From Flavobacteriales bacterium (GTDB lineage: Bacteria > Bacteroidota > Bacteroidia > Flavobacteriales > UBA7312), in assembly GCA_016779935.1 (NCBI GenBank), contig JADHMQ010000007.1, positions 1 through 64,000 on the forward strand: a DNA stretch of 64,000 bases. The letters run 5' to 3'. Shown piece after piece: positions 18,601-36,082 of this stretch. Numbering within the stretch: position 1 is the first letter of the stretch; the number at the start of each line of letters is the position of its first letter. Position numbers and translations under genes: made by a program. The notes beneath the pieces are model-generated. The model worked only from the letters and a program-made list of their open reading frames with translations, was not told the origin of the DNA and did not search any database.

Positions 18601-21600
18601 ATTAAAATCTGTTCCTAATCGAATGAATAATGATAAATCGTCGTCGGCTAAATCCAACTCATTTTCTCCAGAAGCTTCGGCATGAACATACATTTTTAGA
18701 CGTTTATACGTTCTGAAGTCGTTGTTAAATGTTTTGTAAGCTGCTCTAGAGTCTCCGTCCTCCAAATCACAAACTTTAAGTACTAATGACTGTTCGTTCT
18801 GCCTTCTTACATAAGTTGTAGTATTATCCACCTCTTGTTCAATTCCAGGAGGTAACACATATGGAATTGGAACTCTCTCTCCATTCTCCTCAATATTCAC
18901 TACTGACACATCAAATGAAGTGTTGGAAACATTATCATTTGGCACGTATTCCCCTTCAGTTTTAAGGTCAAAATTGTAACGCCTCCACTCCCCACGAACT
19001 AATTCTAAGGTAGCAAATCGTAATACAACAGGCTCTTCAAAATCTTTTAGCATCATTCGAATAAATCGAATGGATTTGAAATCTCTAATTGACCCAACAA
19101 CTTTATCTGCTTGTTGAACTGGAACTTTGAACTGATACCACTTTATCACTCTGTTGCCATTTGGTGTTTTGGCAACAGATTCTTGTATATCGGTAATGTA
19201 ACTTTCTCCTACTTGCATATTCGGAAAAATAGGAATGTTGTAGTGGTAATAGCTTTCTGACTCATTAAGCGTATTATCAAAATTTATGTCTTCCGTATTT
19301 GGTATTGTAGTTGACATTGTTGGCGTGGGATTTGGAATGGCAGAGTTTCCGTCAATTCCTGAAAAATACTTGTACCTATTTAATATGGAAGCTCTTTGAT
19401 CGTCTAAATCATCCCCTAAAAAGTAGTTGTAATTATCTGAAGAAGGGTCTTCTATTGCTAAATTGTAGGCTTGACTAGTTGTCCCATAAATATTGCCTAT
19501 TTTTTGAATGTATGCGGTATCAAAAAATGCTCGTTCATCCACATCTCTCAAACCGTCAAGACCAACATCTTGAAATTCTCTCGACTCTGCATCAACATCA
19601 AAAGAGTTGGTTAAAGCAAAAGTAGTTGGCATTCTTCCCCATACACTGCTAGTATCATCTACATTTAATAAGTCTGTTGAAGAAGGCAGTCCATTTTCAA
19701 AACTTTTAAATCCGTCTCTAAGTACATCTTCTGAAACATTACCTAAATTAAGCATAATTGTACCACCATTCTGATTATCAGAATCATCATTGAAAGGATC
19801 CATTAGCCAAAACTCAACAAACTCAATGTTTTGTGTTTCGAAGTCAGTAGTTTCAAGTTTTCTCATTATCCCTGCCCAACGTTGTTCTGGATTTAGCAAT
19901 AGACCTGAAGTCGTAATATTTTCAGTATCGTAATTGTATGGACCTCTTTCATTTGGATCAAAATAAAGATTCAGTACTGGTAAGTTTGAAACTTGGGTAG
20001 CATACTGTGGGTCTTTATTTGGAAAAACTTCCTTTTCTAAAACCTCTCTTACATTATGGTCAGATAATTGATTATCATCATTGGCAATATGAGAAGGTGT
20101 TGTGCTTGAGTTTCTATAAAAAGTAGGATCAATATTGTACCAAGAAAGTAAGGCTCTATTAGCTCCAGTATTGATATTTCCCAAACGTGGTGCTTGATTT
20201 TCAAGCATTGATTCTGGAAAAATATTTGGGTCATTTGGCAAACTCGCTAAAAACCAAGCGCCTGGATTTTTAATGTCAATGCCTGTGCTACTCGCTTCAA
20301 AATCATCAATGTAGGCTGTACCAGACTCTCCAATTGCTCTTTGATGTCCAGGAATAAGGTGAGCAAATTCACCTTGAGCTGTGAGTGTTGATTTCTCTTT
20401 GGTTTCTAGAATTGGCAAAAAGTCAACAATCTTTGTAAGAAGGCTTGACTCTCTTCTATATGTCCCGTCTAATCCCCAAATGGTATTTGAAATAGGCTCG
20501 TCTCCAGTATTTACTTTTTTAGAATACGGCTTTTCGGTAAGGTTCAAGATGGTTCCTCCCAACATAAAGTCGTCGGAAATGCGATAATCAACATGTGTTC
20601 CTACTAAGGTTTTTTGCTGAAGTCCAAGGGAATTGCTTTCAACCGCAATTCGTATAGGTGTCCCTGAAAGTAAAATACCTTCGTTAATAATATTGACTTT
20701 ACCCATTGAGTAATTTACGGTAAAGTCTATTCCTTCTTCAAGGCGAAGTCCGCCAGCAGTTACAACGACTGAGCCTTGCTCTATAGAAAATACACCCAAA
20801 TATATTTCAGCACCAGACTCGGACTGATAACTTCCTTTCAACCTAAATTTATTGTACTCTGGAAATTGCTGAGCGATGGTTAAAGTAGAATCATACAATT
20901 CATCATACACATACTGATTTGCTATATCGTTATTATCAAACTTATCTCTCAAATCATCTCCAAAAGGTTCTAGAATTGGAAATATAATCTTTCCGTTAGA
21001 AGTCAAAATAGTCGTGCCTGGTAAAAAATCAAAAATACCATCGGCACGCCTCTCTTGTTGGACGTCCAATTGATCCAGCGATAAAAGATTAATAAGCGGT
21101 TTGTTTTCTAAACCATCCTCAGGAATATAATTCGTAATCGTACCATTATCTCGAGTATTTTCAAATACAACATCCAAGTAAAATTCTTTTGCACTGATAT
21201 TATACGCCCCTAAGGAATAGATGTTTTTCATCATCAAATCCCAGTTGGGTAAGAGTGGAGAAAAGCTTAGGTTTTTTAACAATTTAACGTAAAGAGAACT
21301 AGGGGCAGATGGACCGTTTGAACTAAATTCACCAACTTGATAAATTTCATTACCAACTGTATATTGAAACGCTACTGCAAGTACTTCATCAGGACCTATA
21401 ACGCTATTGAGTGAGATGTATCCTAGTTGTGGGTGGAAGCTATATTCAGTTGGAGAAAGTAAGCGTGCTCTTTCCAATTTCTCATAATCTTGTGAACCCA
21501 AGAAATTAGGGTAATTAGTCGTATTGAAAATACTATTGACTTGATTAATATTTCTCAAATTGATGCCTTCAGACAACATTTGTTGATAAAGAGTATTGTT

Positions 21601-22815: not shown

Positions 22816-23356
22816 CCCCTAAATCAGCAACTTCTTGCAGTTCTTTATCGATTACTTTTTCGATACTATTTTTATTAAACCCTAGCATAGTTAAAGCCGA
22901 TAACGCTTCATCCTTAACAGTATTGTGTGAAATCATAGAAGAATGGCCTAAATCTAACTTGATGACTTTGTCTTTTAAATCCAAAATTATACGCTGAGCT
23001 GTTTTGCCCCCTATACCTTTCACACTTTGTAGGGTTGTCACATTATTAGAAAGTATGGCTTGCTGAATTTCATTTGGATTCAATGACGAAAGAATCATTT
23101 GGGCAGTATTTGGCCCTACACCAGACACGGAAATGAGTTGTCTGAACAAGTCTCTTTCAGCATTATCAAAAAAACCATATAGGGTATGAGCATCTTCTTT
23201 TATGGACAGATGAGTAAACAGTTTGCAAAATTCATCATCTGATAATTTTGAAAACGTTTGCAATGAAATTCGTAATAAATACCCCACGCCATTACAGTCT
23301 ATTATAACATATGAAGGGTTTTTCTCTATTAATTTTCCTTGAATGTGTGTTATCAT
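22778..23356 (-). CDS. ruvA: Holliday junction branch migration protein RuvA
   Basis: I start this gene at 23356 (MITHIQGKLIEK), giving 192 residues. The longer frame upstream would lie inside maeB and lacks family similarity. RuvA binds four-way junctions and loads the RuvB motor. Visible features are the OB-fold N terminus with DCNGVGYLLRIS, two helix-hairpin-helix motifs (ISVSGVGPNTAQMILS and VKGIGGKTAQRIILDLKDK), and the C-terminal domain III (ALTMLGFNKNSIEKVI) that contacts RuvB. It overlaps maeB by 4 bases (ATGA). The partner ruvB is at 37203-38228 in a separate operon, so ruvAB is split as in many Bacteroidota. Confidence 0.95.
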   Translation of the reverse strand: MITHIQGKLIEKNPSYVIIDCNGVGYLLRISLQTFSKLSDDEFCKLFTHLSIKEDAHTLYGFFDNAERDLFRQLISVSGVGPNTAQMILSSLNPNEIQQAILSNNVTTLQSVKGIGGKTAQRIILDLKDKVIKLDLGHSSMISHNTVKDEALSALTMLGFNKNSIEKVIDKELQEVADLGVEEVVKRVLKKM

Positions 23357-25623
23357 TTTCTTTTTGCTTGAGCATCTATTACTGCTATGGTTACCATATT
23401 GACTATTTCTCGAACTGAGCACCCCAACTGTAGAATGTGAACAGGCTTTTTCATTCCAATAAGAATTGGTCCTATAGCCTCTACATCGTCAAATTCTTGG
23501 AGTAGTTTATACGCTATATTACCAGACTCTAAGTTAGGAAATATAAGTGTATTAGCATTTTCTTTTAAATCTGTAAAGGGGAAATTTTGTTCTCTTTTTT
23601 CTTTATTGAGTGCGAAGTCAGCTTGGATTTCTCCATCAACAATAAGGCTTGGATTGCTTTTCTTAATTAAATTTCTAGCCTCCATAATTTTGGAAACATT
23701 TGGACTTTGTGATGAGCCGTAATTTGAATACGATAGGAGAGCAATTTTTGGAGTAATATTAAATCGTCTAACTGCTTTGGCTGTAAGTTCAGCAATATTT
23801 GCCAATTCTTTAGCAGTAGGGTCTATATTAACTGTAGTATCTGCTAAAAACAAACTTCCTTTTTTTGTGTTCAAAATGAACATTCCAGCAACCTTTTCAA
23901 CACCTTCTTCAGTACCAATAATTTGTAGTGCTGGACGGACAGTATTGGGGTAGTTTCTGTTAATTCCTGAAATAAAAGCATCGGCTAAACCTTGATCAAC
24001 CATCATTGCACCGAAATAATTTCGCTCACGCATCAATTTTTGCGCCTCAAATAATGTAAGCCCTTTTCGTTGACGTTTTTCAAATAATATTTGACCAAAT
24101 TCATGGCGTCTACTTCGTTCGTGTTCACTTTTTGGATCTATAATCTGAACTCCTTCAAGTTCAAGCACATTATCTTCAATCAGCTGCTCAATGTTTTTTG
24201 TTCTTCCTAATAATATTGGGATAGCAATTCCTTCGTCTTTAACTTGCTGTGCTGCTTTTAAAATCTTGTAGTTTTCAGCTTCAGCAAATACAATTTTCTT
24301 TGGGCTTCTTTTGGCCTTGGTTGTAATTTGTCTTACTAATTTGTTATCAAGACCTAAGCGTTTCTCAAGCTCTTGAGCATATTTTTCAAAATCGGTTATT
24401 TTTTTACGTGCTACTCCAGATTCTATCGCTGCTTTTGCTACTGCTGGTGCTACTACAGAAATTAATCTACTATCAAGCGGCTTTGGAATAATGTACTCTG
24501 GACCAAACGTAATGACTTTTTCGCCGTAAGCAAGGTTAACGGTATCAGGAACTATTTCTTTAGTTAAATCAGCAATACTTTTAACAGCTGCAAGTTTCAT
24601 TTCTTCATTAATGCATGTAGCTCTTACATCCAAAGCACCCCTAAAAATGTATGGAAATCCTAATACGTTATTAACTTGATTAGGATGGTCGGAACGACCT
24701 GTTGCCATAATGATATCTTCCCTTGCTGACACAGCCTCATCGTAAGAAATTTCTGGGTCAGGATTAGCCAATGCGAAAACGATAGGTATTCTAGCCATAG
24801 ATTTAACCATTTCCTTAGACATAATGTTTCCAGAAGAAAGTCCAAGAAAAACATCAGCATCTTTTATAGCTTCGTCTAAAGTATTAATGTTTTTATCGGT
24901 TGCAAAAAACTGTTTTTCCGCAGTCAGATTTTCAGCGTCCTTTCTAATAACGCCTTTACTATCCAGCATTACTATATTTTCCTTTTTTGCACCTAAGGAC
25001 AGGTACAATTTAGCACACGACATTGCTGCTGCTCCAGCACCATTAATAATAATATTTACTGACTCTATTTTCTTTTCAGCAATTTCTAAAGCATTTATTA
25101 AAGCCGCTGCAGAAATAATCGCAGTTCCGTGTTGGTCATCGTGCATAATTGGAATAGACAACTCCTCTTTCAAACGCTTTTCAATTTCAAAGCATTCAGG
25201 AGCTTTAATGTCTTCTAAATTTATCCCTCCAAAAGTTGGGGCAATGGATTTCACTACCTCAACGAATTTATCAACATCAGAAGCATCTACCTCTATATCA
25301 AAAACATCGATATCTGCAAAAATCTTAAATAACAAACCCTTTCCTTCCATCACTGGTTTTGAAGCTTCAGGGCCGATATCTCCTAAACCCAATACTGCCG
25401 TTCCATTAGTGATAACGGCAACCAAATTGCTTTTTGCAGTGTATTTATAAACATCGTCTTTGTCTTCACTAATACGAATACATGGTTCTGCAACTCCAGG
25501 CGAATAAGCCAAGGCTAAATCCCGCTGTGAACTGTGTTTTTTAGTTGGTACAACTTCTATTTTTCCAGGTCTTCCAGACTGATGATAATCTAGAGCTTCT
25601 TGTTTTTTACGTGTAGTAGACAT
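23353..25623 (-). CDS. maeB: NADP-dependent malic enzyme with phosphotransacetylase-like C-terminal domain
   Basis: The 756-residue protein is the two-domain MaeB form. The N-terminal malic enzyme half (about residues 1-425) has LALAYSPGVAEPC, the metal-site region IPIMHDDQHGTAI and the nucleotide-binding IIINGAGAAAMSC. The C-terminal half (about 435-756) resembles phosphate acetyltransferase and is regulatory in studied members. It oxidatively decarboxylates malate to pyruvate and makes NADPH for biosynthesis. It is the first gene of the run ending at tonB, coupled by 4 bases to ruvA. Its ATG lies only about 17 bases from the terminator hairpin of the neighbouring minus-strand gene, leaving little room for a separate promoter. 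Confidence 0.95.
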   Translation of the reverse strand: MSTTRKKQEALDYHQSGRPGKIEVVPTKKHSSQRDLALAYSPGVAEPCIRISEDKDDVYKYTAKSNLVAVITNGTAVLGLGDIGPEASKPVMEGKGLLFKIFADIDVFDIEVDASDVDKFVEVVKSIAPTFGGINLEDIKAPECFEIEKRLKEELSIPIMHDDQHGTAIISAAALINALEIAEKKIESVNIIINGAGAAAMSCAKLYLSLGAKKENIVMLDSKGVIRKDAENLTAEKQFFATDKNINTLDEAIKDADVFLGLSSGNIMSKEMVKSMARIPIVFALANPDPEISYDEAVSAREDIIMATGRSDHPNQVNNVLGFPYIFRGALDVRATCINEEMKLAAVKSIADLTKEIVPDTVNLAYGEKVITFGPEYIIPKPLDSRLISVVAPAVAKAAIESGVARKKITDFEKYAQELEKRLGLDNKLVRQITTKAKRSPKKIVFAEAENYKILKAAQQVKDEGIAIPILLGRTKNIEQLIEDNVLELEGVQIIDPKSEHERSRRHEFGQILFEKRQRKGLTLFEAQKLMRERNYFGAMMVDQGLADAFISGINRNYPNTVRPALQIIGTEEGVEKVAGMFILNTKKGSLFLADTTVNIDPTAKELANIAELTAKAVRRFNITPKIALLSYSNYGSSQSPNVSKIMEARNLIKKSNPSLIVDGEIQADFALNKEKREQNFPFTDLKENANTLIFPNLESGNIAYKLLQEFDDVEAIGPILIGMKKPVHILQLGCSVREIVNMVTIAVIDAQAKRK

Positions 25624-25639
25624 GGCGTAAAAATATATA

Positions 25640-25662
25640 AAAAAACCGGCTTGAAGCCGGCA
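25640..25662 (-). terminator. Rho-independent terminator after the 237-residue sorting-domain gene
   Basis: CCGGCTT / AAGCCGG arms around 25646-25660, with a short loop, are followed on the minus strand by TTTTTTT. It lies 25 bases past the stop at 25685 and just ahead of maeB. Confidence 0.8.
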
Positions 25663-25684
25663 TTTTATTAATATGATAGTATTA

Positions 25685-26398
25685 TTATTTTCTGACTAGC
25701 AATCGCTTTATAGCGTCTAACTTTCCATCAACATATATGTTAGCAAAGTATAAGCCATTTGGCGTATTACTCACATCTAACCTTACAATACCCTGATTGT
25801 TTTTAATAATCTTATTCTCTACAATTGTACCTAGCATATCAGTTACTACCACTTCAGCAGACTGAGAAGGAAGAACTGAATAGTTTAAACTCGCATAAGA
25901 AGATGCTGGATTAGGGTGAAAGTCTGAAAAGTTACTTAAACTATTTTCGTCAATGGAGGTTCCTGTAATGACATAGTTAACAATAGTACAAGCAGAGTCA
26001 GGTTCATTATCAGCATTAAATGCACAATATTTGATTGAAGCCGAAGCGGGTAAAATTCCTTTATTGTCAAAATGAACTTGAAAGTTTGTTGGTAATTCTT
26101 GCCCTGGAGAGAAAGAGATAGTATGTGGGGAAACAGATGTAGAAGGCAAGTAACAAGACTGCCAACAAAAATAGTTTTCAGTTCCTGAAGTTGCTGAAAT
26201 AACTTCTCTAGAAACTTTAATATTAATAGAACTTGGTGAAATATTTTTCACTTTAATATCAGTTCCTAAATCTCCAAATAATGAGGTAGAGTTGGAAGTG
26301 TTAACATTGTTTTCATGCGGCTCAACAGTAATACTACTACTTTGTGAAAATACTTGAACTGTTGACACAACTAAAAAGAAAAGTATTGCTTTTTTCAT
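25685..26398 (-). CDS. Secreted protein with type IX sorting domain, unknown function
   Basis: The 237-residue protein has a signal peptide (MKKAILFFLVVSTVQVFSQ). A single beta-rich domain (about residues 22-150) looks immunoglobulin-like and carries cysteines in YFCWQSCY and in SIKYCAF. A type A sorting domain fills about residues 160-237, with FHPNPASSYASLNY at its start and NGLYFANIYVDGK and a basic KRLLVRK end. It should cross the outer membrane through the SprA system and be attached to the surface or released. The domain in front is not one I recognise. The gene stands alone, with its own promoter-like element and terminator, divergent from the plus-strand redox island. Confidence 0.85.
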   Translation of the reverse strand: MKKAILFFLVVSTVQVFSQSSSITVEPHENNVNTSNSTSLFGDLGTDIKVKNISPSSINIKVSREVISATSGTENYFCWQSCYLPSTSVSPHTISFSPGQELPTNFQVHFDNKGILPASASIKYCAFNADNEPDSACTIVNYVITGTSIDENSLSNFSDFHPNPASSYASLNYSVLPSQSAEVVVTDMLGTIVENKIIKNNQGIVRLDVSNTPNGLYFANIYVDGKLDAIKRLLVRK

Positions 26399-26644: not shown

Positions 26645-27736
26645 ATGAAAAAACATCTACTATTATTTATCGGTATTGCCGCTAGTGTTTCCTCAATTGC
26701 GCAACAACTTGTTGACACTACACAAGCCGAAAACAAAAATGTTTTACTCGAGGAATATACGGGTAGAAACTGTCCCTACTGCCCCGATGGACATAAGATA
26801 GCAAACGATATAAAAGTAGCTAACCCCGGCGATGTTGTTCTAATTAGAATACATACTGGAGGTTATGCTCCTACAACCAATCCAAACCTAAATACTGCAT
26901 TTGGTCCAACTTTAGCTGATCAGTCTGGAATAACAGGATACCCTACTGGGACTATCAATAGGCATGTTTTTTCTGGCAGCTCAACGTCTATGGGTAGGAG
27001 TGCATGGAGTGCTGTTTCAGATCAAGTTTTAGCTGAAACAGCAGTGGTAAACATTGGAATGAATGCTGTTGTTGATACCGCTACAAGAAATTTATTTGTT
27101 GAAGTTGAAATGTATTATACTGGCTCTCAAACAGTTAGCTTTAATAAGCTGAACGTAGCAGTCTTACAAGACAATATTTTTGGCTCTCAATCCGGAGCTT
27201 CAAGTTATAATCCAGCAGATGGAAATGACAACAACTACAACCACAAACACATTCTTAGACACATGCCTTTAGGAGCATGGGGAGAAAAAATTGAAGATAT
27301 TGAACCTGGCACTTTTGTAAGAAAAACTATAAATTATACACTCCCTGGAAATATACAAGGTGTAGAATTGAAAGTTAAAGATTTAGATATTGCTGTTTTC
27401 ATAACAGAGGATAAGCAAGAAGTACTTAATGCTACACACATGAAGCCTATTTTGGGCTCTGCAACCAATATTGAAGAGTTTTCAATAAAACCGTTAGAAC
27501 TATACCCAAACCCTACAAACGACAAACTTAATGTAGAATTTGAAATCAGAAAAGCAAGTGATGTAAACATCAAGATTCATAATCTTCTTGGGCAAACTGT
27601 GTTTAATGAAAATATAACTTTTTCTTCAGGACAACGAAAATTTCAGGTTGATGTGAGTGCTTTAGAAACTGGGATATATATTCTTGAGTTGTCAAATGAA
27701 ATAAATTCAAGTACACAAAAAGTAATTATTAAATAG
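26645..27736 (+). CDS. Omp28-like thioredoxin-fold protein with type IX sorting domain
   Basis: The 363-residue protein starts with a signal peptide (MKKHLLLFIGIAASVSSIAQ). An Omp28-type domain follows with VLLEEYTGRNCPYCPDGH, whose CPYC pair is C43/C46, then IRIHTGGY and SGITGYPTGTINR, where a proline in GYPTG fits the cis-proline of a thioredoxin fold. About residues 285-363 form the sorting domain (LYPNPTNDKLNVEF to VIIK). It should be exported by type IX secretion. The active-site layout suggests a thiol-disulfide role, but Omp28-family function is not established. It is the first plus-strand gene of the redox island, 4 bases before the next gene. Confidence 0.87.
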   Translation: MKKHLLLFIGIAASVSSIAQQLVDTTQAENKNVLLEEYTGRNCPYCPDGHKIANDIKVANPGDVVLIRIHTGGYAPTTNPNLNTAFGPTLADQSGITGYPTGTINRHVFSGSSTSMGRSAWSAVSDQVLAETAVVNIGMNAVVDTATRNLFVEVEMYYTGSQTVSFNKLNVAVLQDNIFGSQSGASSYNPADGNDNNYNHKHILRHMPLGAWGEKIEDIEPGTFVRKTINYTLPGNIQGVELKVKDLDIAVFITEDKQEVLNATHMKPILGSATNIEEFSIKPLELYPNPTNDKLNVEFEIRKASDVNIKIHNLLGQTVFNENITFSSGQRKFQVDVSALETGIYILELSNEINSSTQKVIIK

Positions 27737-27740
27737 AAAA

Positions 27741-29240
27741 ATGAGCATGAAAAATTATTTAACAACACTATTAATTTGTTTATCTGTAGTTGGTGTAAAA
27801 GCACAACTTCCAGACGGAAGCGTTGGTCCTAATTTTACTGTGACAGACATTGAAGGCAACTCACATACTCTATATGATATTTTAGACAGTGGATATACGG
27901 TGGTTATGGATTTAAATGCAACATGGTGCGGTCCTTGTTGGTCGTACCACCAAGCTGGTCATTTAGAGACATTGTGGGAAGAGCATGGGCCTGCAGGTTG
28001 GCCTGGCGTAAGCGCAAATACAACAGATGATGTTTTTGTATTTATGATTGAGTCGTCATCAAATACTGGACTAGCGGACTTACAAGGTGAAACTTCAAAT
28101 TCTTATGGCGATTGGATTACTGGCACACATTTTCCAATAGTCAATGAAGAAACTGTGGCATCAAGTTATGAATTAGTATATTATCCGACCGTTTTTACCG
28201 TTTGTCCTAATAGGATTGTAACAGAATCTGGTGCAATATCAGCAGACGCCCATTATAGTGTAATTGGTGAGTGTGTAAATGCCCAAAACGGTAAAAACTT
28301 AGCAACTTTTGACTACACAGGAGAAAAAACAACCTGCGGAACAAATGTTGACGTTAAAGCTAGATTTCAAAATATGGGAACAGATAATGTAACTGCTTTT
28401 ACAGCAGAAGTATTTGATGGTAGCAACTCAATTGCAACTCAACAATACAGTGGAAACTCAATAAGCACCTACGGTTTTGTTGAATTAGACTTTGGAACCG
28501 TTCAAATTGATGGTCCGACGTCATTAGAAATCAAAATCACTAGTGAAGATGTTTTGCAAAGCGATAACAGTTTGAATCAGAACATTGTACTCGCCAAAGA
28601 AGGTTCTGGCAATATGACTTTACAAATTACAACTGATAATTTTGGAAATCAAGTAAGTTGGGAAATTAAGGACCTAAATGGCACTACTGTAGAAAGTGGA
28701 GGGCCATATTCAAATTCATCGAACACTACTGAGTATGACCCACAGCCACAAGATGATCAAAGTATAAGCTTAGAATCAGACGGCTGTTATTTCTTTGAGG
28801 TTTACGACAGTCAAAATAATGGTATGTATAACTATCCGACTCATGATGATGGTCCTTCATTCTTCAGATTATTAAGTGGAAGTCAGAACACAACAATTGT
28901 TGAGATATTTGGCGATGAGTATAAAGCCTCATTAAAACGTAAGTTCCTTTACAAAAAAGTTTCTGCCATTAAGGAAAATTCTATTGTGAAGAATTCTATC
29001 TACCCAAATCCGACAAACGGTCTTAGCACATTAGAAGTTGATATGAAAGAAAAAATCAACAATGTAGCGCTAAATGTGTTTAACATTTTGGGTGAAATGG
29101 TAATATCAAAGTCTGTCAATCTAAATGTTGGAGCTAATACAATACCACTAAAATTAGAGCATCTAGAAGCAGGAATATATACCGTCGAATTATTATCTCC
29201 ATCATTAAATATTTCTCAAAAGCTAATAAAAATAGACTAG
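27741..29240 (+). CDS. Secreted thioredoxin-like protein with type IX sorting domain (paralogue A)
   Basis: The 499-residue protein has a signal peptide ending VKAQ, then a redoxin domain with NATWCGPCWSYHQ (C63, C66) and a proline before the second half (VYYPTVFTVCPN). About residues 185-400 form beta-rich modules with FEVYDSQNNGMYN, and residues about 420-499 form the sorting domain (YPNPTNGLSTLEV to LIKID). The CGPC motif is that of a strong reductant-type thioredoxin, yet the protein is built for the cell surface. It shares the phrase LPDGS-x-x-P-F after the signal peptide, and the whole architecture, with the next gene, so the two are tandem paralogues. A terminator follows at 29270. Confidence 0.9.
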   Translation: MSMKNYLTTLLICLSVVGVKAQLPDGSVGPNFTVTDIEGNSHTLYDILDSGYTVVMDLNATWCGPCWSYHQAGHLETLWEEHGPAGWPGVSANTTDDVFVFMIESSSNTGLADLQGETSNSYGDWITGTHFPIVNEETVASSYELVYYPTVFTVCPNRIVTESGAISADAHYSVIGECVNAQNGKNLATFDYTGEKTTCGTNVDVKARFQNMGTDNVTAFTAEVFDGSNSIATQQYSGNSISTYGFVELDFGTVQIDGPTSLEIKITSEDVLQSDNSLNQNIVLAKEGSGNMTLQITTDNFGNQVSWEIKDLNGTTVESGGPYSNSSNTTEYDPQPQDDQSISLESDGCYFFEVYDSQNNGMYNYPTHDDGPSFFRLLSGSQNTTIVEIFGDEYKASLKRKFLYKKVSAIKENSIVKNSIYPNPTNGLSTLEVDMKEKINNVALNVFNILGEMVISKSVNLNVGANTIPLKLEHLEAGIYTVELLSPSLNISQKLIKID

Positions 29241-29269
29241 AAAGTTATTTTAATTATTAATAAATCATG

Positions 29270-29297
29270 AGAGCAGCCAATTTGGCTGCTCTTTTTT
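29270..29297 (+). terminator. Rho-independent terminator after thioredoxin paralogue A
   Basis: AGAGCAGCCA (29270-29279) pairs with TGGCTGCTCT (29283-29292) around a 3-base loop and is followed by a T-run. It lies 29 bases after the stop at 29240. Confidence 0.88.
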
Positions 29298-29343
29298 CGT
29301 AAGGATAATTGTCCTTATAAGCTGTATAATGGTCTTTTTTTAT

Positions 29344-29351
29344 TAATTTTG
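29344..29351 (+). promoter_or_regulatory. -7 promoter element for thioredoxin paralogue B
   Basis: TAATTTTG matches TAnnTTTG exactly, 30 bases before the ATG at 29382 and just after a terminator. This supports a separate transcript. No clear -33 TTTG is seen. Confidence 0.4.
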
Positions 29352-29381
29352 TGTCAAACTAAACTTAATTAATACAATTTT

Positions 29382-30929
29382 ATGAAAGCAATTTTAATAG
29401 TACTAGCGTTTTTATTGTCATTTACTTTTAATACTAGTGCGCAGTTACCAGATGGCTCCATTGCTCCTGACTTCACTACTACAGATATGAATGGAAACCA
29501 ACATAGACTTTATGATTATCTTGACCAGGGGTATACTGTAATTTTAGATATCAGTGCGACTTGGTGTGGTCCATGTTGGAACTACCACTCTGGTGGAACT
29601 TTTGAAGAAATTTGGGCTGCTCACGGTCCAGCTGGAGAACCTGGTGTAAATGCTAATACTACTGATGATGTAATGATTCTTTGGTTCGAAGGTGATGATG
29701 GCACACCAGAAAGTGAATTAGAAAACAGCGATTTAGGAAATTGGCTAGAACCAAATGGAGAAGAAGTTCATTTCCCAATTATTAATGACAACAATATAGC
29801 TGACTTGTATGCTCTTCCTTATTGGCCAATAATTTACACTATTTGCCCAAATAGAACACTCACTGAATCTGGTCAGGCTACGGCTGCAAATCATTACAGT
29901 AATTTAGACGACTGTATGGCAGCTTTTTCAGGCACAAATGCTGCTTTACTAGACATCAACACAACAATAATGCCTGTAGGCTGTGAAGCTAGTGCATCAG
30001 GTAATCTTTCTGTTATAGTTCAAAATATGGGAACAGAATTATTAAGTAACTTTTCAGTTGAATTGTCTGCTAATGGCCAAAGTATTGGTACAGAAGACTT
30101 TAGCGGTTCTTTAGAAACATATCAAACTACAACTATTGATTTTGGAAATGTAACGGTTGACAGCGAAACTATTGAAATAGAAATAACAACTCCAGACGAC
30201 AATAATGCTGACAATAATATGTCACATTCTATTAACTTTTCGAATGCTCAAACCACACAAAAAGTTACTGTTAATCTTTTAACAGATAATTATGGAAACG
30301 AAGTCTACATGGAGATTACTGATGAAAATGATAATGTGATTTGGTTTGAGGGTAATGAAGCTAACGCTGGAATTACTGGTACTGGACAGCTACCTTCAGA
30401 TGATGCAACAAATCCACTAGGAAATAATCAATCTTACGATTGGGATGTTAACCTTCCATCTACAGGTTGCTTTAAATTTACAATTTATGACTATTATGGC
30501 GATGGGCTTGCAGCATCAACAAATACTAATGGTGGTGTTGATGGCAATTGGTCAATTGAAAATAGTAACGGTATGGTAATTGCAGAACAAATGGTACAAA
30601 ATTTTGAAAATACTGATGACGCTTCTTTTGAAAATACTCAAGCAGCAGACCCATCAAGTATCAACGAAGAATCAAATATTGCTCTTTCTGTATTTCCTAA
30701 CCCAATTCAATCTGATGCAAAATTATCTTTTAGTTTAACAAAAACTTCAAACGTAAGATTAGATATATTAAACGTATTAGGTGAAACAATTTTGTCTAAT
30801 GATTATTCGCTTCAACCTGGCAATAATAACATAGACATTAACGTTGATAGAATGACTAACGGCATTTACTTTGCTCACCTAACAATTAATGGTGTAACTA
30901 ACACAGTAAAAATTACCGTTAGCAAGTAA
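29382..30929 (+). CDS. Secreted thioredoxin-like protein with type IX sorting domain (paralogue B)
   Basis: The 515-residue protein repeats the layout of its upstream neighbour: a signal peptide ending NTSAQ, a redoxin domain with ISATWCGPCWNYHS (C62, C65) and YWPIIYTICPN, middle beta-rich modules including FTIYDYYGDGLA, and a sorting domain from about residue 435 (VFPNPIQSDAKLSF to TVSK). The phrase HGPAG-x-PGV-x-ANTTDDV is shared by both paralogues and marks a common insertion after the active site. The two have diverged over the rest, so the duplication is not recent. Its own promoter-like element and a terminator bracket it. Confidence 0.9.
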   Translation: MKAILIVLAFLLSFTFNTSAQLPDGSIAPDFTTTDMNGNQHRLYDYLDQGYTVILDISATWCGPCWNYHSGGTFEEIWAAHGPAGEPGVNANTTDDVMILWFEGDDGTPESELENSDLGNWLEPNGEEVHFPIINDNNIADLYALPYWPIIYTICPNRTLTESGQATAANHYSNLDDCMAAFSGTNAALLDINTTIMPVGCEASASGNLSVIVQNMGTELLSNFSVELSANGQSIGTEDFSGSLETYQTTTIDFGNVTVDSETIEIEITTPDDNNADNNMSHSINFSNAQTTQKVTVNLLTDNYGNEVYMEITDENDNVIWFEGNEANAGITGTGQLPSDDATNPLGNNQSYDWDVNLPSTGCFKFTIYDYYGDGLAASTNTNGGVDGNWSIENSNGMVIAEQMVQNFENTDDASFENTQAADPSSINEESNIALSVFPNPIQSDAKLSFSLTKTSNVRLDILNVLGETILSNDYSLQPGNNNIDINVDRMTNGIYFAHLTINGVTNTVKITVSK

Positions 30930-30948
30930 GAGTTAATTTGCTAAAAAC

Positions 30949-30993
30949 AAAAAAGGTCAGTAGATTAACCAAAACTAATTGCTGACCTTTTTT
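30949..30993 (+). terminator. Terminator-like hairpin between paralogue B and the TlpA-like gene
   Basis: AAAAAAGGTCAG (30949-30960) pairs with CTGACCTTTTTT (30982-30993). An inner ATTA/TAAT can extend the stem. The T-run lies within the 3' arm, so it is a bidirectional-looking A/T-flanked terminator. The next start codon follows only 22 bases later. Confidence 0.75.
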
Positions 30994-31015
30994 AATGCTT
31001 AAAAAATAAAATACT

Positions 31016-31507
31016 ATGAAAAAATCCCTATTGATTATTGCTCTTATTAGCATCAATTTTATCGCCTTTTCTCAGAATAGGACATTACCAAAAGTTGATC
31101 TTAAAACACTAGAAAATACCATTTTAAACTCATCAGAGTTTGATAATGATGGTAATCCGATTGTTATCAGTTTTTGGGCAACATGGTGTAAGCCTTGCAT
31201 CAAAGAATTATCTACCATTGCCGAAGTATACGAAGATTGGCAAGACGAAACTGGTGTTAAAATTATTGCTATATCCATAGATGATGCAAGAAATATGTCA
31301 AAAGTAAAGCCAAAAGTAAATTCCGAAATGTGGGAATACGAAGTATATTGTGATCCAAACGGTGATTTCAAAAGAGCTATGGGCGTAGGTGGAGTGCCAC
31401 ATACATTCTTACTAAACTCGAAAAAAGAAATTGTTTGGCAACATACTGGCTACAAAGATGGTGATGAGTATGAATTATATGAGCAAATAGAAGCACTATC
31501 AAAATAG
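31016..31507 (+). CDS. Periplasmic TlpA/ResA-like thioredoxin
   Basis: The 163-residue protein has a signal peptide (MKKSLLIIALISINFIAFSQ) and one thioredoxin domain with SFWATWCKPCIKEL (C58, C61) and the cis-proline loop GVGGVPHTFLLN. There is no sorting domain, so it should stay in the periplasm. The CKPC motif is typical of TlpA/ResA-like reductases that act on cytochrome c or secreted proteins. Four bases after its stop begins the outer-membrane protein gene, and the run continues to ubiX. It could hand electrons to, or keep reduced, the exported CxxC proteins of this island, but that link is inference from position. Confidence 0.88.
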   Translation: MKKSLLIIALISINFIAFSQNRTLPKVDLKTLENTILNSSEFDNDGNPIVISFWATWCKPCIKELSTIAEVYEDWQDETGVKIIAISIDDARNMSKVKPKVNSEMWEYEVYCDPNGDFKRAMGVGGVPHTFLLNSKKEIVWQHTGYKDGDEYELYEQIEALSK

Positions 31508-31510
31508 ACA

Positions 31511-33166
31511 ATGAAAAGATTAAATCTCCTCCTATTAGGGCTATTGCCATTTATAATATTCGGACAAGAAAATTCCCCTGGAACTATTCAAGGGGATTTT
31601 AACTTCAATGCACAGACCTATTCAGAAGACCCTTCAATTAATGCCTCAAAAGTAGATGAGTTTATGCTCATGAATGGCTATGCAAACATCCTTTTCAATA
31701 AAGGAGATTTTACAGCAGGTATTCGTTACGAGAGCTATCTAAATGCTCTTCAAGACTTTGACTCAAGATTCAACGGAAATGGAATTCCTTACCGATTCGC
31801 TCAATACAATGTGTATGGACTAGACATTACTGTAGGTAATTTCTATGAGCAGTTTGGTAATGGCCTAATTTTTAGAAGTTATGAGGAAAAAACTTTAGGA
31901 ATAGACAATGCAATGGACGGAGTGCGATTAAAATATAATCCTGTCAAAGGTTTATCTCTAAAAGGTTTTGTAGCAAAACAAAGGTTGTTTTGGGAACAAG
32001 GACCTGGTATTATTCGAGGGATTGATGGCGAATTAAATATCAATGATGCCTTATCTCTTGAGAATAGCAAAACTCAGGCCATTGTGGGTGGCAGCTTTAT
32101 AAGTCGTTTTGAAGAAGATAATAACCCTGTTTATAACCTTCCAGAAAATGTAGCTGCATATGCTCTTAGAACAACCCTAAATAGAGGAAAGTTTTCGTTT
32201 AACTCTGAATATGCCTACAAGTACAACGACCCCGCTGGCTCAGTGACTTACAATAACTATGCTCCCGGCAACGCTTTAATGGCAAATTTGACATACTCTG
32301 AAAGAGGATTAGGGATTATTCTTGAAGCCCACAGAGTAGATAATATGGACTATCGTTCAAAACGAGGAGCAACTGGAAAAGAATTAACCTTAAATTTTAT
32401 TCCTGCAATTAGTAAGCAACACGTATATACATTAGCCGCCTTTTACCCTTTTGCTACACAGCCTTTAGGAGAATTAGGCTTTCAAGGGCAAGTAAATTAT
32501 ACCTTTAAGAAGAAAAGCACTCTTGGTGGTAAATACGGAACGCAGTTAAACATTAATTATTCCAGAATAAATGCTTTGAATGGAGGCCCTTCAGAATTAA
32601 CTATAAACAGAGAACATAGCCCTATGTTCTTTAGTCTTCTAGATGAAGAACTTTACTTTAGAGACATAAACTTCGACATTAAAAAGAAAATTAGCAAAAA
32701 GGTAAAACTAATGTTTAACTATCTCGACCTCATTTACAACAAGGATGTGATTGAAGGGAAAATCATTGGAAAAAACGTCCATGCTAGAATTGGAATTGCC
32801 GAAGTCAATTACAAACTTAAACCCAAACATACCATCAGAAGTGAGTTTCAATATCTCTCTATTGATAAAAGTGATGAGTACTACAAAGACCAAGGCGATT
32901 GGGTAATGGGCTTAGTAGAATACACCTTTTCGCCGCACTGGTTTTTTGCTTTTATAGACCAATACAATGGCGGCTACACAAGCCAAGATGGTGTAACTTA
33001 TGAAGCTGTTCATTACCTCAACATTAGTTGTGGTTATTCAAAAGGAACGAATAGATTTGAATTAGGATATGGTAAAAAACGTGAAGGGATATTTTGTGTA
33101 GGAGGAGTTTGTAAAAACGTGCCATCTTCTAATGGATTCACTTTAAGTATCACTTCAAGCTTTTAA
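31511..33166 (+). CDS. Outer-membrane beta-barrel protein of unknown function (DUF6029-like)
   Basis: The 551-residue protein has a signal peptide (MKRLNLLLLGLLPFIIFGQ) and a long series of amphipathic strands, ending in FTLSITSSF with the terminal phenylalanine of outer-membrane barrels. GNFYEQFGNGLIFRSYEEK near residue 108 and KGFVAKQRLFWEQGPGIIRG near residue 155 are distinctive. From memory I link them to the uncharacterised family DUF6029, which I could not verify. It sits between a periplasmic thioredoxin and an Omp28 lipoprotein with 3- and 2-base gaps, so the three are surely co-transcribed. A pore or docking role for the redox partners is possible but unproven. Confidence 0.75.
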   Translation: MKRLNLLLLGLLPFIIFGQENSPGTIQGDFNFNAQTYSEDPSINASKVDEFMLMNGYANILFNKGDFTAGIRYESYLNALQDFDSRFNGNGIPYRFAQYNVYGLDITVGNFYEQFGNGLIFRSYEEKTLGIDNAMDGVRLKYNPVKGLSLKGFVAKQRLFWEQGPGIIRGIDGELNINDALSLENSKTQAIVGGSFISRFEEDNNPVYNLPENVAAYALRTTLNRGKFSFNSEYAYKYNDPAGSVTYNNYAPGNALMANLTYSERGLGIILEAHRVDNMDYRSKRGATGKELTLNFIPAISKQHVYTLAAFYPFATQPLGELGFQGQVNYTFKKKSTLGGKYGTQLNINYSRINALNGGPSELTINREHSPMFFSLLDEELYFRDINFDIKKKISKKVKLMFNYLDLIYNKDVIEGKIIGKNVHARIGIAEVNYKLKPKHTIRSEFQYLSIDKSDEYYKDQGDWVMGLVEYTFSPHWFFAFIDQYNGGYTSQDGVTYEAVHYLNISCGYSKGTNRFELGYGKKREGIFCVGGVCKNVPSSNGFTLSITSSF

Positions 33167-33168
33167 TT

Positions 33169-33957
33169 ATGAAACAGTCTTATTATATTTTTCTAAGCGT
33201 ACTTGTACTAAGTTTAACTATCTCATGCGACACCATTGAGAAAGATAATTTCACAGACCCAAACGCAAATTTCCCTTGGCTAGGCAAAAAAATTCTTGTT
33301 GAAGACTTTACAGGATACAAATGTACTAACTGCCCAGCGGCATCATCTGAACTTCACACCATAGAAGAGTTATACCCTGATAAGGTCATTGGGATTGCCA
33401 TTCATGCTGGCTTTTTCGCAAGGCCTAGTGGCGATTTTGTTGAAGACTTTAGAACAGCTGAAGGTAATGAATTAGCTGAATTTTTTGGACCTGACGCCTT
33501 TCCAATTGGCATGGTAAATAGAGTAGGCTATCCAAACAATATACTCAAAGAATATACTGATTGGGCGACTGAAGTAAGTAGTCAATTACTTGAAATACCA
33601 ACTATTGAACTGTCAATTTCTGAAGAAAACAATACCATAAACGTAGAAGCCAGACGACTTTCAGATGATAATACCAGTTTGAAGTTAGTAGTTTGTATTA
33701 CTGAAGACGGTGTTATCTATAAGCAAATTGATGGTTCAAGCTTAATTGAAGATTATGAGCACAATCATGTGTTACGAAAAGTGCTGAATGGTACTTGGGG
33801 CAGTAATATTCAATTGGGTAATACAAACACTACCTTCAGCTATGACTACACTCTTGACGAATCTTGGGTAAGAAGTAACTGTAATGTCGTTGCATACGTA
33901 TACAACGACAGCAATAAAGAAGTATTACAAGCAGAAAAGATTCATCTAACCGATTAA
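33169..33957 (+). CDS. Omp28-like lipoprotein with CxxC motif
   Basis: The 262-residue protein has a lipoprotein signal with the lipobox LTISC (C20 as the modified cysteine). It then has an Omp28-type thioredoxin-like domain, KILVEDFTGYKCTNCPAASS with C52/C55, IAIHAGFFA, and DAFPIGMVNRVGY, where the proline corresponds to the thioredoxin cis-proline. A C-terminal beta domain follows (about residues 145-262). It lacks a sorting domain, unlike the Omp28 protein at 26645. The pair thus represents two ways to place the same fold: membrane-anchored here, secreted there. It is 2 bases after the barrel gene. Confidence 0.88.
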   Translation: MKQSYYIFLSVLVLSLTISCDTIEKDNFTDPNANFPWLGKKILVEDFTGYKCTNCPAASSELHTIEELYPDKVIGIAIHAGFFARPSGDFVEDFRTAEGNELAEFFGPDAFPIGMVNRVGYPNNILKEYTDWATEVSSQLLEIPTIELSISEENNTINVEARRLSDDNTSLKLVVCITEDGVIYKQIDGSSLIEDYEHNHVLRKVLNGTWGSNIQLGNTNTTFSYDYTLDESWVRSNCNVVAYVYNDSNKEVLQAEKIHLTD

Positions 33958-33969
33958 AGAAATTAGACT

Positions 33970-34929
33970 ATGAAAAACGTCTTAACCTTAATTTTTGCAT
34001 TTGTATTTCTTACATCTGGTGCTCAACAAAACAATATCGTTAATAGCGATGATGCAGAGGCATTCTTATCAGCCTATTTTTCACCCTTTTCAAATAGTAT
34101 AGGAGCAGGACTTAATAGCGGCTGGTACAATACTGCTAAACCTCATAAACTAGCTGGTTTTGATGTGAGCCTTACAATAAACATGATAACCCTTTCAGAT
34201 GAGCAAAAATCATTTAATCCAAATGATATTCCTAATTTTAGTAGCAGTGATAACTCTACTCCATCCATTCTTGGTGAAGGTATGGGAGCCGAAATTGATT
34301 ATACAAGCGATAATTTTTCGAGTACATTCACTATGCCTGAACAGAATATTTCTCTAACAGCTGTTCCAATACCAACCTTGAACGCAGGCATTGGACTCTT
34401 TAAAGGCACTGAAATAAATGTAAGATATATACCGGCTTATAATTACGACATTGGTTTCATAGGTGAGGGCTCTATCGAATTGTATGGCGCAGGCATTAAG
34501 CACGATATTCTACAATGGATACCGATAGTGAACAAATTACCTTTCGATTTGTCTTTTCAAGGGGCATTAACTAAGTTTAAAACCTCTTTTGAAGTCGAAA
34601 GTCAAAGCGTAAAACAAGATGTTAGCCTTAACATTGATGCAAGCACATATAATCTTATCGTATCCAAGAAATTTGCCCTCATTACGGCCTATGGAAGTAT
34701 GGGTTATAATTCCGTAAAAACCTCATTCAGTTCAAATACTAATTTTCAATTGGGAAGTACTAACGTTATCGAATTTAATGTCCCTTTGGATATGGAGTTC
34801 GAAAGTCAATCAGTATTTCAAGCAGCTGCAGGAGTTAGACTTCAATTTGCTATATTTACAGTCTATGCCAATCAAACTTTTTCAGACTACCCTATAACCT
34901 CGGCTGGTATTGGCGTAAGCTTTAGATGA
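33970..34929 (+). CDS. Predicted outer-membrane or periplasmic barrel protein (DUF6588-like)
   Basis: The 319-residue protein starts with a signal peptide ending TSGAQQ and shows barrel-like strands in its C-terminal two thirds, ending PITSAGIGVSFR. The conserved-looking parts are FLSAYFSPFSNSIGAGLNSGWYNTA near residues 33-57, and VPIPTLNAGIGLFKGTEINVRY near 140. I associate it with the uncharacterised family DUF6588 from memory only. Its stop overlaps the next start (ATGA). Nothing in the sequence shows an enzymatic role; it is probably an envelope component of the same transcription unit. Confidence 0.7.
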   Translation: MKNVLTLIFAFVFLTSGAQQNNIVNSDDAEAFLSAYFSPFSNSIGAGLNSGWYNTAKPHKLAGFDVSLTINMITLSDEQKSFNPNDIPNFSSSDNSTPSILGEGMGAEIDYTSDNFSSTFTMPEQNISLTAVPIPTLNAGIGLFKGTEINVRYIPAYNYDIGFIGEGSIELYGAGIKHDILQWIPIVNKLPFDLSFQGALTKFKTSFEVESQSVKQDVSLNIDASTYNLIVSKKFALITAYGSMGYNSVKTSFSSNTNFQLGSTNVIEFNVPLDMEFESQSVFQAAAGVRLQFAIFTVYANQTFSDYPITSAGIGVSFR

Positions 34930-35516
34930 TTCGACTAAAATTAATATTCATATTTATTTTCACTGCTAGCATTCTTTCGGCACAAAATTTTAAAGCTGGT
35001 GCTGTTGGTGGAATTAGTACCTCACAAGTTTCTGGTGATCAGTTAGGTGGTTTTAATAAAGTAGGACTAAAAATAGGTTCTTTTGTAAACCACCCTATAA
35101 ACTTAGCTACCAGAGGTGAACTAGCCATGTATTATATCGATAAAGGCAGCAATGACCTCAATAGTAATTTTCGCATAGACCTTTCATATATCGAAACATC
35201 TTGGTGTGTACAAAAATCATCAAAAGGTTTTATTTATGAGGGTGGATTACTTTTTTCTGTATTGGTAGATGGCAAAACCTATGACATTTATGGCTATGAA
35301 GACGTCACAAAAAGTGATTACTACAAATTCGATATCGGAGCAAAATTAGCAGCAGGGATAAAATTAAAACCAAGGCTATTTATGTTCTGGGAAATCACCA
35401 ATTCACTACCATTCACTCCTATTCAAGACCATCCTGGAGGAGCTACATACGGATTAAACAAAGGGAAATATAATTCCATATTAAGTTTTTCTTTCCGATA
35501 TTTGTACTCTGAATGA
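34926..35516 (+). CDS. Outer-membrane beta-barrel protein (PorT-like fold)
   Basis: The 196-residue protein has a signal peptide (MIRLKLIFIFIFTASILSAQ) followed by KAGAVGGISTSQVSGDQLGGFNK-type text and eight or so amphipathic strands ending in SILSFSFRYLYSE. This is the outer-membrane beta-barrel domain seen in PorT-like proteins across the phylum. It is too general to assign a function. The ATG overlaps the stop of the previous gene and its own stop overlaps the ubiX start, so the three are translationally coupled. Confidence 0.75.
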   Translation: MIRLKLIFIFIFTASILSAQNFKAGAVGGISTSQVSGDQLGGFNKVGLKIGSFVNHPINLATRGELAMYYIDKGSNDLNSNFRIDLSYIETSWCVQKSSKGFIYEGGLLFSVLVDGKTYDIYGYEDVTKSDYYKFDIGAKLAAGIKLKPRLFMFWEITNSLPFTPIQDHPGGATYGLNKGKYNSILSFSFRYLYSE

Positions 35517-36082
35517 GTAAGAAACAAAAAATAGTCGTTTCGGTGAGTGGTGCAAGTGGTGCCATCTATGCTAAAGTGTTGTTTGACAGACTACAACAAC
35601 TATCTGATCAAGTTGATGAGGTGGGAGTGCTTATGTCGGATAATGCTAAATATGTTTGGAAAACTGAACTTGGAAATACAGATTATAAGGATTTGCCTTT
35701 CAAATTTTATTCTCCACAAGATTTTACTGCTCCTTTTGCATCGGGTTCTGCACGCTTTGAAACAATGATTATTTGTCCATGCTCTATGGGTACTTTAGGA
35801 CGAATAGCGCAAGGCATTTCTAACGACCTAACGACTAGATCGGCTGATGTTATATTAAAAGAGAGAAGAAAACTAATTTTAGTTGCACGAGATTCCCCTT
35901 TGAATCTTATTCATATCAATAATATGAAGACTATTACTGAAGCGGGTGGTATAATTTGTCCAGCTACACCTTCTTTTTATAGCAATCCTACCACATTTGA
36001 AGAGCTTGCCTCGACCGTAGTGGATAGAGTAATTTCATTAAGTAGTTTAGAATTAGACTCTTATCAGTGGGGCAATAAATAG
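35513..36082 (+). CDS. ubiX: Flavin prenyltransferase UbiX
   Basis: The 189-residue flavoprotein makes prenylated FMN, the cofactor of UbiD-type decarboxylases used in quinone synthesis. Canonical segments are VVSVSGASGAIYAKVL at the N terminus (FMN binding), IICPCSMGTLGRIAQGISNDL (about residues 87-107), RKLILVARDSPLNLIHINNM (about 121-140) and ICPATPSFYSNP. The length is normal. It closes the plus-strand operon with a 4-base overlap to the barrel gene. Nothing ties it functionally to the upstream envelope genes, so this is likely a neighbourhood of convenience. Confidence 0.95.
   Translation: MSKKQKIVVSVSGASGAIYAKVLFDRLQQLSDQVDEVGVLMSDNAKYVWKTELGNTDYKDLPFKFYSPQDFTAPFASGSARFETMIICPCSMGTLGRIAQGISNDLTTRSADVILKERRKLILVARDSPLNLIHINNMKTITEAGGIICPATPSFYSNPTTFEELASTVVDRVISLSSLELDSYQWGNK

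Follow-up and report, generated by a model that had tools for sequence, protein, structure and literature searches.

Our analysis points to a three-gene core of the Bacteroidota, tlpA-DUF6029-omp28, whose products may, in a tentative reading that we find plausible, constitute an outer-membrane thiol-disulfide relay leading from a DsbD-fed TlpA to surface thioredoxins, with the beta-barrel encoded by the middle gene as the outer-membrane step. Every component of this proposed relay carries a conserved cysteine pair. The core lies in a 64,000-nucleotide stretch of a Flavobacteriales genome (hereafter the window), in which five thioredoxin-fold CxxC proteins, identified from the open reading frame list with Pfam and NCBIfam, are encoded on the plus strand at 26645-33957. 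An earlier note on this DNA had described the five as lying in a row; all five open reading frames are present where it had placed them and on the strand it gave, but the gene for the DUF6029 barrel (31511-33166) separates the fourth from the fifth. The whole 1.68 Mb genome holds 13 AhpC-TSA-type and three Omp28 matches; assuming about 1,500 genes, approximately 1e-6 six-gene runs holding five such proteins would be expected by chance, or approximately 1e-4 when tandem duplicates are counted once.

The first of the five genes (26645-27736) encodes an Omp28-family protein with a CxxC motif at C43/C46 (nt 26771-26782) and a T9SS type A tail (PF11551, E 3.6e-23; PF18962, E 3e-18). This protein, which is no lipoprotein, scores 82.7 bits against PF11551, above the cut-off, and 103.5 bits against the 150 required by NF033782, and is, judging from its sequence, an accessory surface thioredoxin-like protein. 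The second gene (27741-29240), which starts 4 bp past the end of the first, and the third (29382-30929) encode paralogous AhpC-TSA/ResA-like thioredoxin-fold proteins with a mutual identity of 35%, each with a CGPC motif (C63/C66, nt 27927-27938, and C62/C65, nt 29565-29576, respectively) and a T9SS tail (PF00578, E 1.4e-6, and PF18962, E 6.7e-13, for the second; Pfam matches for the third). The type IX sorting domains that the earlier note had seen on three of the five proteins were borne out, PF18962/TIGR04183 being above cut-off in all three; such a tail is by itself a common feature, since approximately 57 are above cut-off in this genome, and the presence of SprA in the window (15610-22815) indicates that the genome has a T9SS.

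Intrinsic-terminator-like hairpins with T-runs were found on the plus strand after the second gene (29269-29293, -18.4 kcal/mol, z -5.1) and after the third (about 30950-30993, -17.9 kcal/mol, z -6.2), and because both hairpins are strong the region probably comprises three transcription units. Since the two hairpins divide the block, we consider tlpA-DUF6029-omp28 (31016-33957) to be the unit that matters. A single five-gene redox operon was ruled out by the two terminators together with the variation of the upstream genes between lineages. The core unit encodes a TlpA/ResA-like periplasmic thioredoxin with a WCKPC motif (31016-31507; C58/C61, nt 31187-31198; PF00578, E 2.9e-19), the DUF6029 outer-membrane beta-barrel (PF19494, E 2.6e-176) and an Omp28-family outer-membrane lipoprotein (33169-33957) with its lipobox cysteine at C20 (nt 33226-33228) and a CxxC motif at C52/C55 (nt 33322-33333). 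Downstream, also on the plus strand, are genes for a DUF6588 protein (33970-34929; PF20230, E 6e-76), which among labelled loci is found beside the core only in the source genome's own family and in one other (f11), a small beta-barrel outer-membrane protein (34926-35516; weak PF13568 match) and, overlapping the latter, a UbiX-family flavin prenyltransferase (35513-36082; TIGR00421). Judging from other neighbourhoods, these last two often lie downstream of the core; the function of the UbiX-family gene is probably unrelated to it.

Among 297 Bacteroidota genomes, clear DUF6029 was present in 59, Omp28 in 62 and both in 58 (Fisher p about 1e-55; genome-wide family counts from Pfam only), and frequent occurrence of either family without the other was not seen in complete genomes. 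The sole DUF6029 genome without a Pfam Omp28 (G228) encodes, according to a more sensitive profile, an Omp28-like T9SS protein directly downstream. Our in-house Omp28 profile drifted to general thioredoxins on iteration, and labels such as 'TlpA+CGPC+Omp28' on TlpA genes do not denote Omp28 membership. Across 120 loci, TlpA lies immediately upstream of DUF6029 in 92 and Omp28 immediately downstream in 106, with gaps between core genes that are mostly shorter than 50 bp, and in one genome (locus L138) TlpA is fused to DUF6029 in a single gene. Carriers of the core include culturable strains, such as Hymenobacter duratus (L071) and Salibacter halophilus (L108). A minority of loci have no TlpA adjoining the barrel, which counts against a relay. 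The earlier note had proposed gene order in other Bacteroidota as a check, and the core order is indeed kept across the phylum; the three T9SS proteins encoded upstream of it (26645-30929) differ between lineages. That the core genes adjoin by descent only would agree with the synteny of the wider region in Flavobacteriales (ruvA, malic enzyme, ubiX, queG, ruvB), but across the phylum the flanks vary while the three-gene core persists and its families are gained and lost together, which makes this explanation extremely improbable.

The core is almost confined to T9SS genomes, as 57 of the 58 encode SprA. This restriction, the T9SS-tailed redoxins that occupy the upstream slot and the surface location and in vitro redox activity of HBP35 from Porphyromonas gingivalis (PMC2907840) would all suit a station at the outer membrane that isomerises the disulfides of T9SS cargo and of surface lipoproteins, in which the barrel would be a docking platform and no electrons would pass through it. 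We regard such a station as distinctly unlikely, given that 172 of 229 T9SS genomes lack the core, which therefore cannot serve a general need of cargo folding, and that such a station leaves the invariant cysteines of the barrel itself without a role.

The barrel protein matches DUF6029 (PF19494) with 587.9 bits against a cut-off of 27 (residues 1-538 of 538), and its AlphaFold2 model (pLDDT 91.5, pTM 0.86) has about 24 strands. A PDB sequence search with it found nothing relevant, and structure gave no lead to its function, every Foldseek match being a generic barrel of the outer membrane (TM about 0.3-0.4). As these include cobalamin and copper transporters, and as HBP35, the nearest solved fold of Omp28, is a hemin binder that sustains growth when hemin is depleted (PMC2907840), the exported thioredoxin-like proteins could be imagined to bind or release heme or metal at the surface for import by the barrel. 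We find this improbable, because the barrel matches in question are generic (TM-score about 0.4), DUF6029 matches no TonB-dependent-receptor family in Pfam and the cluster in the window has no metal genes. An HHpred link reported between DUF6029 and some Wzi barrels near OPX genes (PMC9603273) would instead make DUF6029 a Wzi-like porin for polysaccharide export; this is very improbable, as its constant neighbours are thioredoxins and the cluster in the window holds no polysaccharide genes (beyond the window, gene labels cover only the families profiled).

The barrel has a cysteine pair of its own, in a CxGGxC motif, which the earlier note had overlooked. In the source genome it is the CVGGVC hairpin (C529/C534, plus strand, 33095-33112), in a predicted loop preceding the last barrel strand; in the AlphaFold2 model, strands 526-530 and 533-537 come ahead of the last strand at 540-550. 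Both cysteines are present in 130 of 130 aligned DUF6029 sequences, down to 18% identity, and in 19 of 19 more distant relatives. They are the only two conserved cysteines of the barrel, and 95 of the 130 sequences lack any further cysteine beyond residue 30. Distant members of the DUF6029 family that lack Omp28 were taken as a negative control, but they retained the cysteines and had Omp28 substituted: in 13 distant loci without Pfam-level Omp28, the cysteine-bearing barrel still follows TlpA (CKPC, in one case CGPC), and is otherwise accompanied by exported thioredoxins with a CxxC motif, in most cases one lipoprotein and one protein with a T9SS tail.

A conserved cysteine pair would also fit a structural disulfide. 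TlpA and Omp28 could form or correct this disulfide during barrel assembly, as for the disulfides of LptD, and the role of the barrel would then be non-redox. Adjacency, fusion and invariance are likewise compatible with a barrel that has two cysteines and is served by dedicated thioredoxins, and the tight beta-hairpin in which the pair is predicted to lie is a plausible spot for a stabilising disulfide. We nevertheless consider this unlikely, as it leaves unexplained both the T9SS-exported surface thioredoxins that frequently accompany the core and the substitution of Omp28 by a lipoprotein together with a T9SS thioredoxin, and as WCxPC proteins of the TlpA type are typically reductants.

The thioredoxin-fold partners are conserved at their cysteines as well. 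TlpA is above the PF00578/PF08534 cut-offs and, with its WCKPC motif and its ResA/DsbE relatives in the PDB (closest 2m72, E 5e-46), fits the TlpA/ResA/DsbE thiol-disulfide reductases, an assignment that goes no finer because the NCBIfam subfamily cut-offs (ResA, DsbE) were not reached; its signal peptide was judged by eye. The Omp28 lipoprotein exceeds the cut-offs of PF11551 (110.9 against 34.9 bits) and NF033782 (183.7 against 150 bits), and the nearest solved fold to its AlphaFold2 model (pLDDT 93.1) is HBP35 (5y1a). On the basis of this model, Omp28 would share both fold and CxxC motif with HBP35-like surface thioredoxins and is a putative thioredoxin. The earlier note had given the cysteine positions C43/C46 and C52/C55 correctly, and had made its proposal depend on conservation of the redox cysteines, which we found in 108 of 108 TlpA sequences, 119 of 120 Omp28 lipoproteins (the remaining sequence has an X at the site; the lipobox cysteine is kept in 118 of 120) and 44 of 44 T9SS-tailed Omp28 relatives.

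We infer electron transfer, its direction, its crossing of the membrane and its substrates as follows. Periplasmic TlpA would be reduced, presumably by the single DsbD of the cell, and would dock at the periplasmic face of the barrel, whose CxGGxC pair would be the middle redox centre and would exchange electrons with the Omp28 lipoprotein at its CxxC motif. Electrons would reach the T9SS-exported CxxC surface proteins via this lipoprotein or directly from the barrel, so that surface thioredoxin-fold proteins would stay reduced and could reduce disulfides in T9SS cargo or external proteins, or rearrange them. We favour this relay because DUF6029 and Omp28 co-occur (58 of 59); because of the gene adjacency across the 120 loci and the TlpA-DUF6029 fusion; because the barrel pair is invariant and the partner CxxC motifs essentially so; because the 13 distant loci swap Omp28 for other exported CxxC thioredoxins; because the Omp28 model best matches a surface protein with thioredoxin activity in vitro; and because DsbD is present and the core nearly restricted to T9SS genomes. 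DsbD, single-copy in the source genome, is found in 296 of 297 Bacteroidota genomes; its presence is thus not specific support, and its co-occurrence with the core was set aside as uninformative. Also against the relay, the CxGGxC pair seems to be located either at the outer face of the barrel or inside the lumen, whereas TlpA is periplasmic, and the route by which they would meet is unexplained. The relay reaching the outer membrane that the earlier note had envisaged therefore survives in part: core order, partner cysteines and the barrel's own pair fit it, but the five proteins do not form a single conserved unit, the upstream three being lineage-variable and behind terminators.

Known systems resemble parts of this arrangement. 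HBP35 is exported to the surface by the T9SS and has an N-terminal thioredoxin domain, the in vitro activity of which depends on C48/C51 of its CxxC motif, but the available part of PMC2907840 describes it as a single hemin-binding protein and reports no barrel partner or electron donor; its sequence similarity to Omp28 is remote (profile E 2.8e-6). Omp28 of P. gingivalis (PF11551), of the same family as the 33169-33957 and 26645-27736 products, has been described as a surface adhesin/receptor (Slakeski 2002, as cited in PMC7290125), but its solved part (2r2c) lacks the CxxC domain. Our literature search found no redox role for Omp28, no paper on Omp28 and selenoproteins or on TlpA and the outer membrane or disulfides in Bacteroidetes/Flavobacterium, and only unrelated papers for Omp28 with TlpA. 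The DsbD-fed periplasmic reductases (TlpA, ResA, CcmG/DsbE, ScsB-ScsC) share the WCxPC donor, and DsbD occurs in the source genome, but their relays end in the periplasm, whereas the donor in this module is paired with an outer-membrane barrel and with surface proteins. By analogy only, the MtrCAB porin-cytochrome conduit also combines a periplasmic donor, an outer-membrane barrel and a terminal surface lipoprotein; it uses hemes, not thiols, and MtrB was one of many generic barrel matches (TM 0.40), from which we claim no homology. PROKKA_00502 of Paraprevotella, annotated as 'Omp28-related', is a T9SS-dependent surface protein that has been investigated in connection with the recruitment and autolysis of trypsin (PMC9477747), but no redox mechanism has been proposed for it.

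We found no description of an electron donor for surface thioredoxin-like proteins of Bacteroidota such as HBP35, and a barrel that has its own invariant cysteine pair, and whose gene is linked to those of a periplasmic reductase and of surface thioredoxins, is a candidate for that donor. The module occurs in much of this phylum, among whose members are bacteria of the gut, the mouth and the sea, and it offers a specific role, open to experimental test, for a family (DUF6029) that had no assigned function. A further proposal, which we consider possible but somewhat doubtful, is that DUF6029 is a thiol-redox conduit across the outer membrane and that Bacteroidota actively export reducing power to their surface and surroundings; such a conduit would, if real, do with thiols what MtrCAB does with cytochromes. 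More speculatively, effects already ascribed to surface proteins related to Omp28, trypsin autolysis among them, may be worth examining for a redox step.

The source genome (1.68 Mb, Bacteroidota), of which the window is contig C7, has its closest relatives in the named collection mainly among metagenome assemblies labelled Flavobacteriales. ORF calls and profile matches place six plus-strand genes within 26645–33957, encoding in order an Omp28-family protein with a type IX secretion (T9SS) tail (26645–27736), two CGPC proteins of thioredoxin fold that are paralogues of each other and carry T9SS tails (27741–29240 and 29382–30929), a TlpA/ResA-like CKPC protein (31016–31507), a DUF6029 barrel (31511–33166) and an Omp28-family lipoprotein (33169–33957). 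A strong hairpin with a T-run lies 3′ of the second gene (29269–29293), another hairpin and T-run follow the third (about 30950–30993), and the last three genes are spaced by 2–3 bp; judging from the sequence, the likely transcription units are genes one and two, gene three, and gene four onward. Genes for DUF6588, a small barrel and UbiX lie close behind the block or overlap, and the small barrel gene, which overlaps ubiX (34926–36082), is located 3′ of the core (tlpA, barrel and Omp28 lipoprotein genes) in many Flavobacteriales and some Bacteroidales. Upstream, the minus strand (15610–26398) carries sprA, which belongs to the T9SS translocon, as well as ruvA, a malic enzyme gene and the gene of a small protein with a T9SS tail. 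In many Flavobacteriales loci the module keeps synteny with ruvA, malic enzyme and this T9SS protein and, on the downstream side, with ubiX/queG/ruvB.

Among 297 genomes spread over the phylum, DUF6029 (clear at E below 1e-14) was found in 59, Omp28 in 62 and both in 58 (p about 1e-55, a significance inflated by shared ancestry), an agreement that holds over many families; in the sole apparent exception, G228, an Omp28-like T9SS protein adjoins the barrel. When gene order was compared in 120 loci, some genomes being counted twice, TlpA lay directly 5′ of the barrel in 92 (the contig ending there in 9) and Omp28 directly 3′ in 106 (the contig ending there in 1). The labels of these loci include Bacteroidales, Flavobacteriales, Cytophagales and Hymenobacter, besides Chlorobiota and Ignavibacteria for some assemblies, and the genes flanking the core vary among them, Flavobacteriales excepted. 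The module, whole or in part, also occurs in L094 and L076, whose assemblies bear the labels Ignavibacteria and Candidatus Delongbacteria; this suggests either spread beyond Bacteroidota or binning contamination. In a few genomes DUF6029 appears to be broken into two frames or duplicated (L037/L119, 752–2405; G081:C10; G070:C1), which could be assembly error or pseudogenes.

The main new finding is the barrel's invariant CxGGxC pair, C529 and C534, kept in 130/130 sequences of an alignment reaching down to 18% identity with the window protein. The barrel has no other conserved cysteines, the pair accounts for two of just seven invariant columns, and it was retained in all 19 additional DUF6029 proteins chosen as distant cases. 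CxxC is likewise present in TlpA (108/108, mostly as WCKPC), in the T9SS-tailed Omp28 (44/44) and in the Omp28 lipoprotein (119/120, the remaining residue being an unresolved X), whose lipobox cysteine is kept in 118/120. From that cysteine onward, conservation is strong in the window lipoprotein (33226–33249) and 120 relatives, with the pattern C-D-x-[IV]-[ED]-x-P (D in 103/118, P in 98/118). It does not resemble the acidic signal typical of export and may serve in sorting or docking. A further match of the lipoprotein (33169–33957), at E 8e-16 and thus under the model's cut-off, is to 'Omp28-related selenoprotein' of NCBIfam; if the family has a form with selenocysteine, this would support a redox role for the CxxC. 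A third Omp28 protein of this genome (G000:C10:43196–44041, 686 aa frame) has a T9SS tail, and several relatives have similarly long ones.

Independent linkage comes first from L138, where TlpA and DUF6029 are fused in one protein of 667 residues (thioredoxin domain 21–152, barrel 158–667) and an Omp28 gene adjoins on the opposite strand. Secondly, in 13 distant loci without Pfam-level Omp28, the cysteine-bearing barrel still lies 3′ of TlpA, followed in most by a CPHC-type lipoprotein thioredoxin and a T9SS-tailed thioredoxin; three have only the T9SS-tailed thioredoxin 3′ of the barrel, and in L160 a lipoprotein thioredoxin is upstream. The surface partner switches family yet stays an exported CxxC thioredoxin, the strongest argument that redox chemistry is conserved rather than Omp28 as such. 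A large share of loci have, immediately 5′ of TlpA, a gene for an Omp28 or a CGPC thioredoxin with a T9SS tail; in others the product of this gene has such a tail and no redox domain that was recognised. Of the close relatives, just L115 (genome G022) shows the complete window order, and in L118/L034 the T9SS Omp28 and one of the CGPC paralogues are missing. Because of this variation, the upstream trio is regarded as an accessory layer outside the fixed core.

We favour, tentatively, a thiol relay, in which DsbD (single copy, C2:192337) would pass electrons to TlpA, TlpA would hand them to the barrel's cysteine pair, and the barrel to Omp28 and the T9SS thioredoxins; the reducing direction is suggested by the WCxPC and CGPC motifs and by DsbD. 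In the AlphaFold2 model of the barrel (pLDDT 91.5) the cysteines lie in a hairpin (526–530/533–537) before the last strand (540–550). Outer-membrane barrels usually have a periplasmic C-terminus, and with this topology the predicted hairpin begins on the outer side, although it might be folded into the lumen. One step is a difficulty for the relay: how TlpA, which is periplasmic, would reach a pair that seems to be on the outer or lumenal side. The main rival, which we consider rather unlikely, reads CxGGxC as a structural disulfide, with TlpA and Omp28 serving to mature it.

The Omp28 lipoprotein model (pLDDT 93.1) places the CxxC in a thioredoxin-like N-terminal domain followed by a beta domain, and its PDB matches are, in order, HBP35 (5y1a), 2axo and the P. 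gingivalis Omp28 domain 2r2c; TlpA best matches 2m72, an uncharacterised thioredoxin-like protein. We take 2m72 and 2r2c to be PG_2175 and PG_2173, P. gingivalis proteins with neighbouring locus numbers, so the core would occur in that species. Trypsin contains disulfides, and a reductive contribution to its autolysis is therefore conceivable. This autolysis is promoted by a Paraprevotella Omp28-related T9SS protein in a study that does not mention redox and whose model shows other domains (PMC9477747). HBP35 is a T9SS surface protein that, in recombinant form, reduces insulin with DTT, an activity removed by C48S/C51S, and the authors of that study state the physiological role of its thioredoxin domain as unknown (PMC2907840). 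P. gingivalis Omp28 is cited as a surface adhesin/receptor (PMC7290125), and DUF6029 figures in a single one of the open-access papers searched, as a possible polysaccharide porin (PMC9603273). Although every protein family here has been described before, as has this kind of relay chemistry, we found no account in the open-access papers searched of an outer-membrane barrel in thiol exchange, nor of this module. Transfer across the membrane, if true, would be categorically new.
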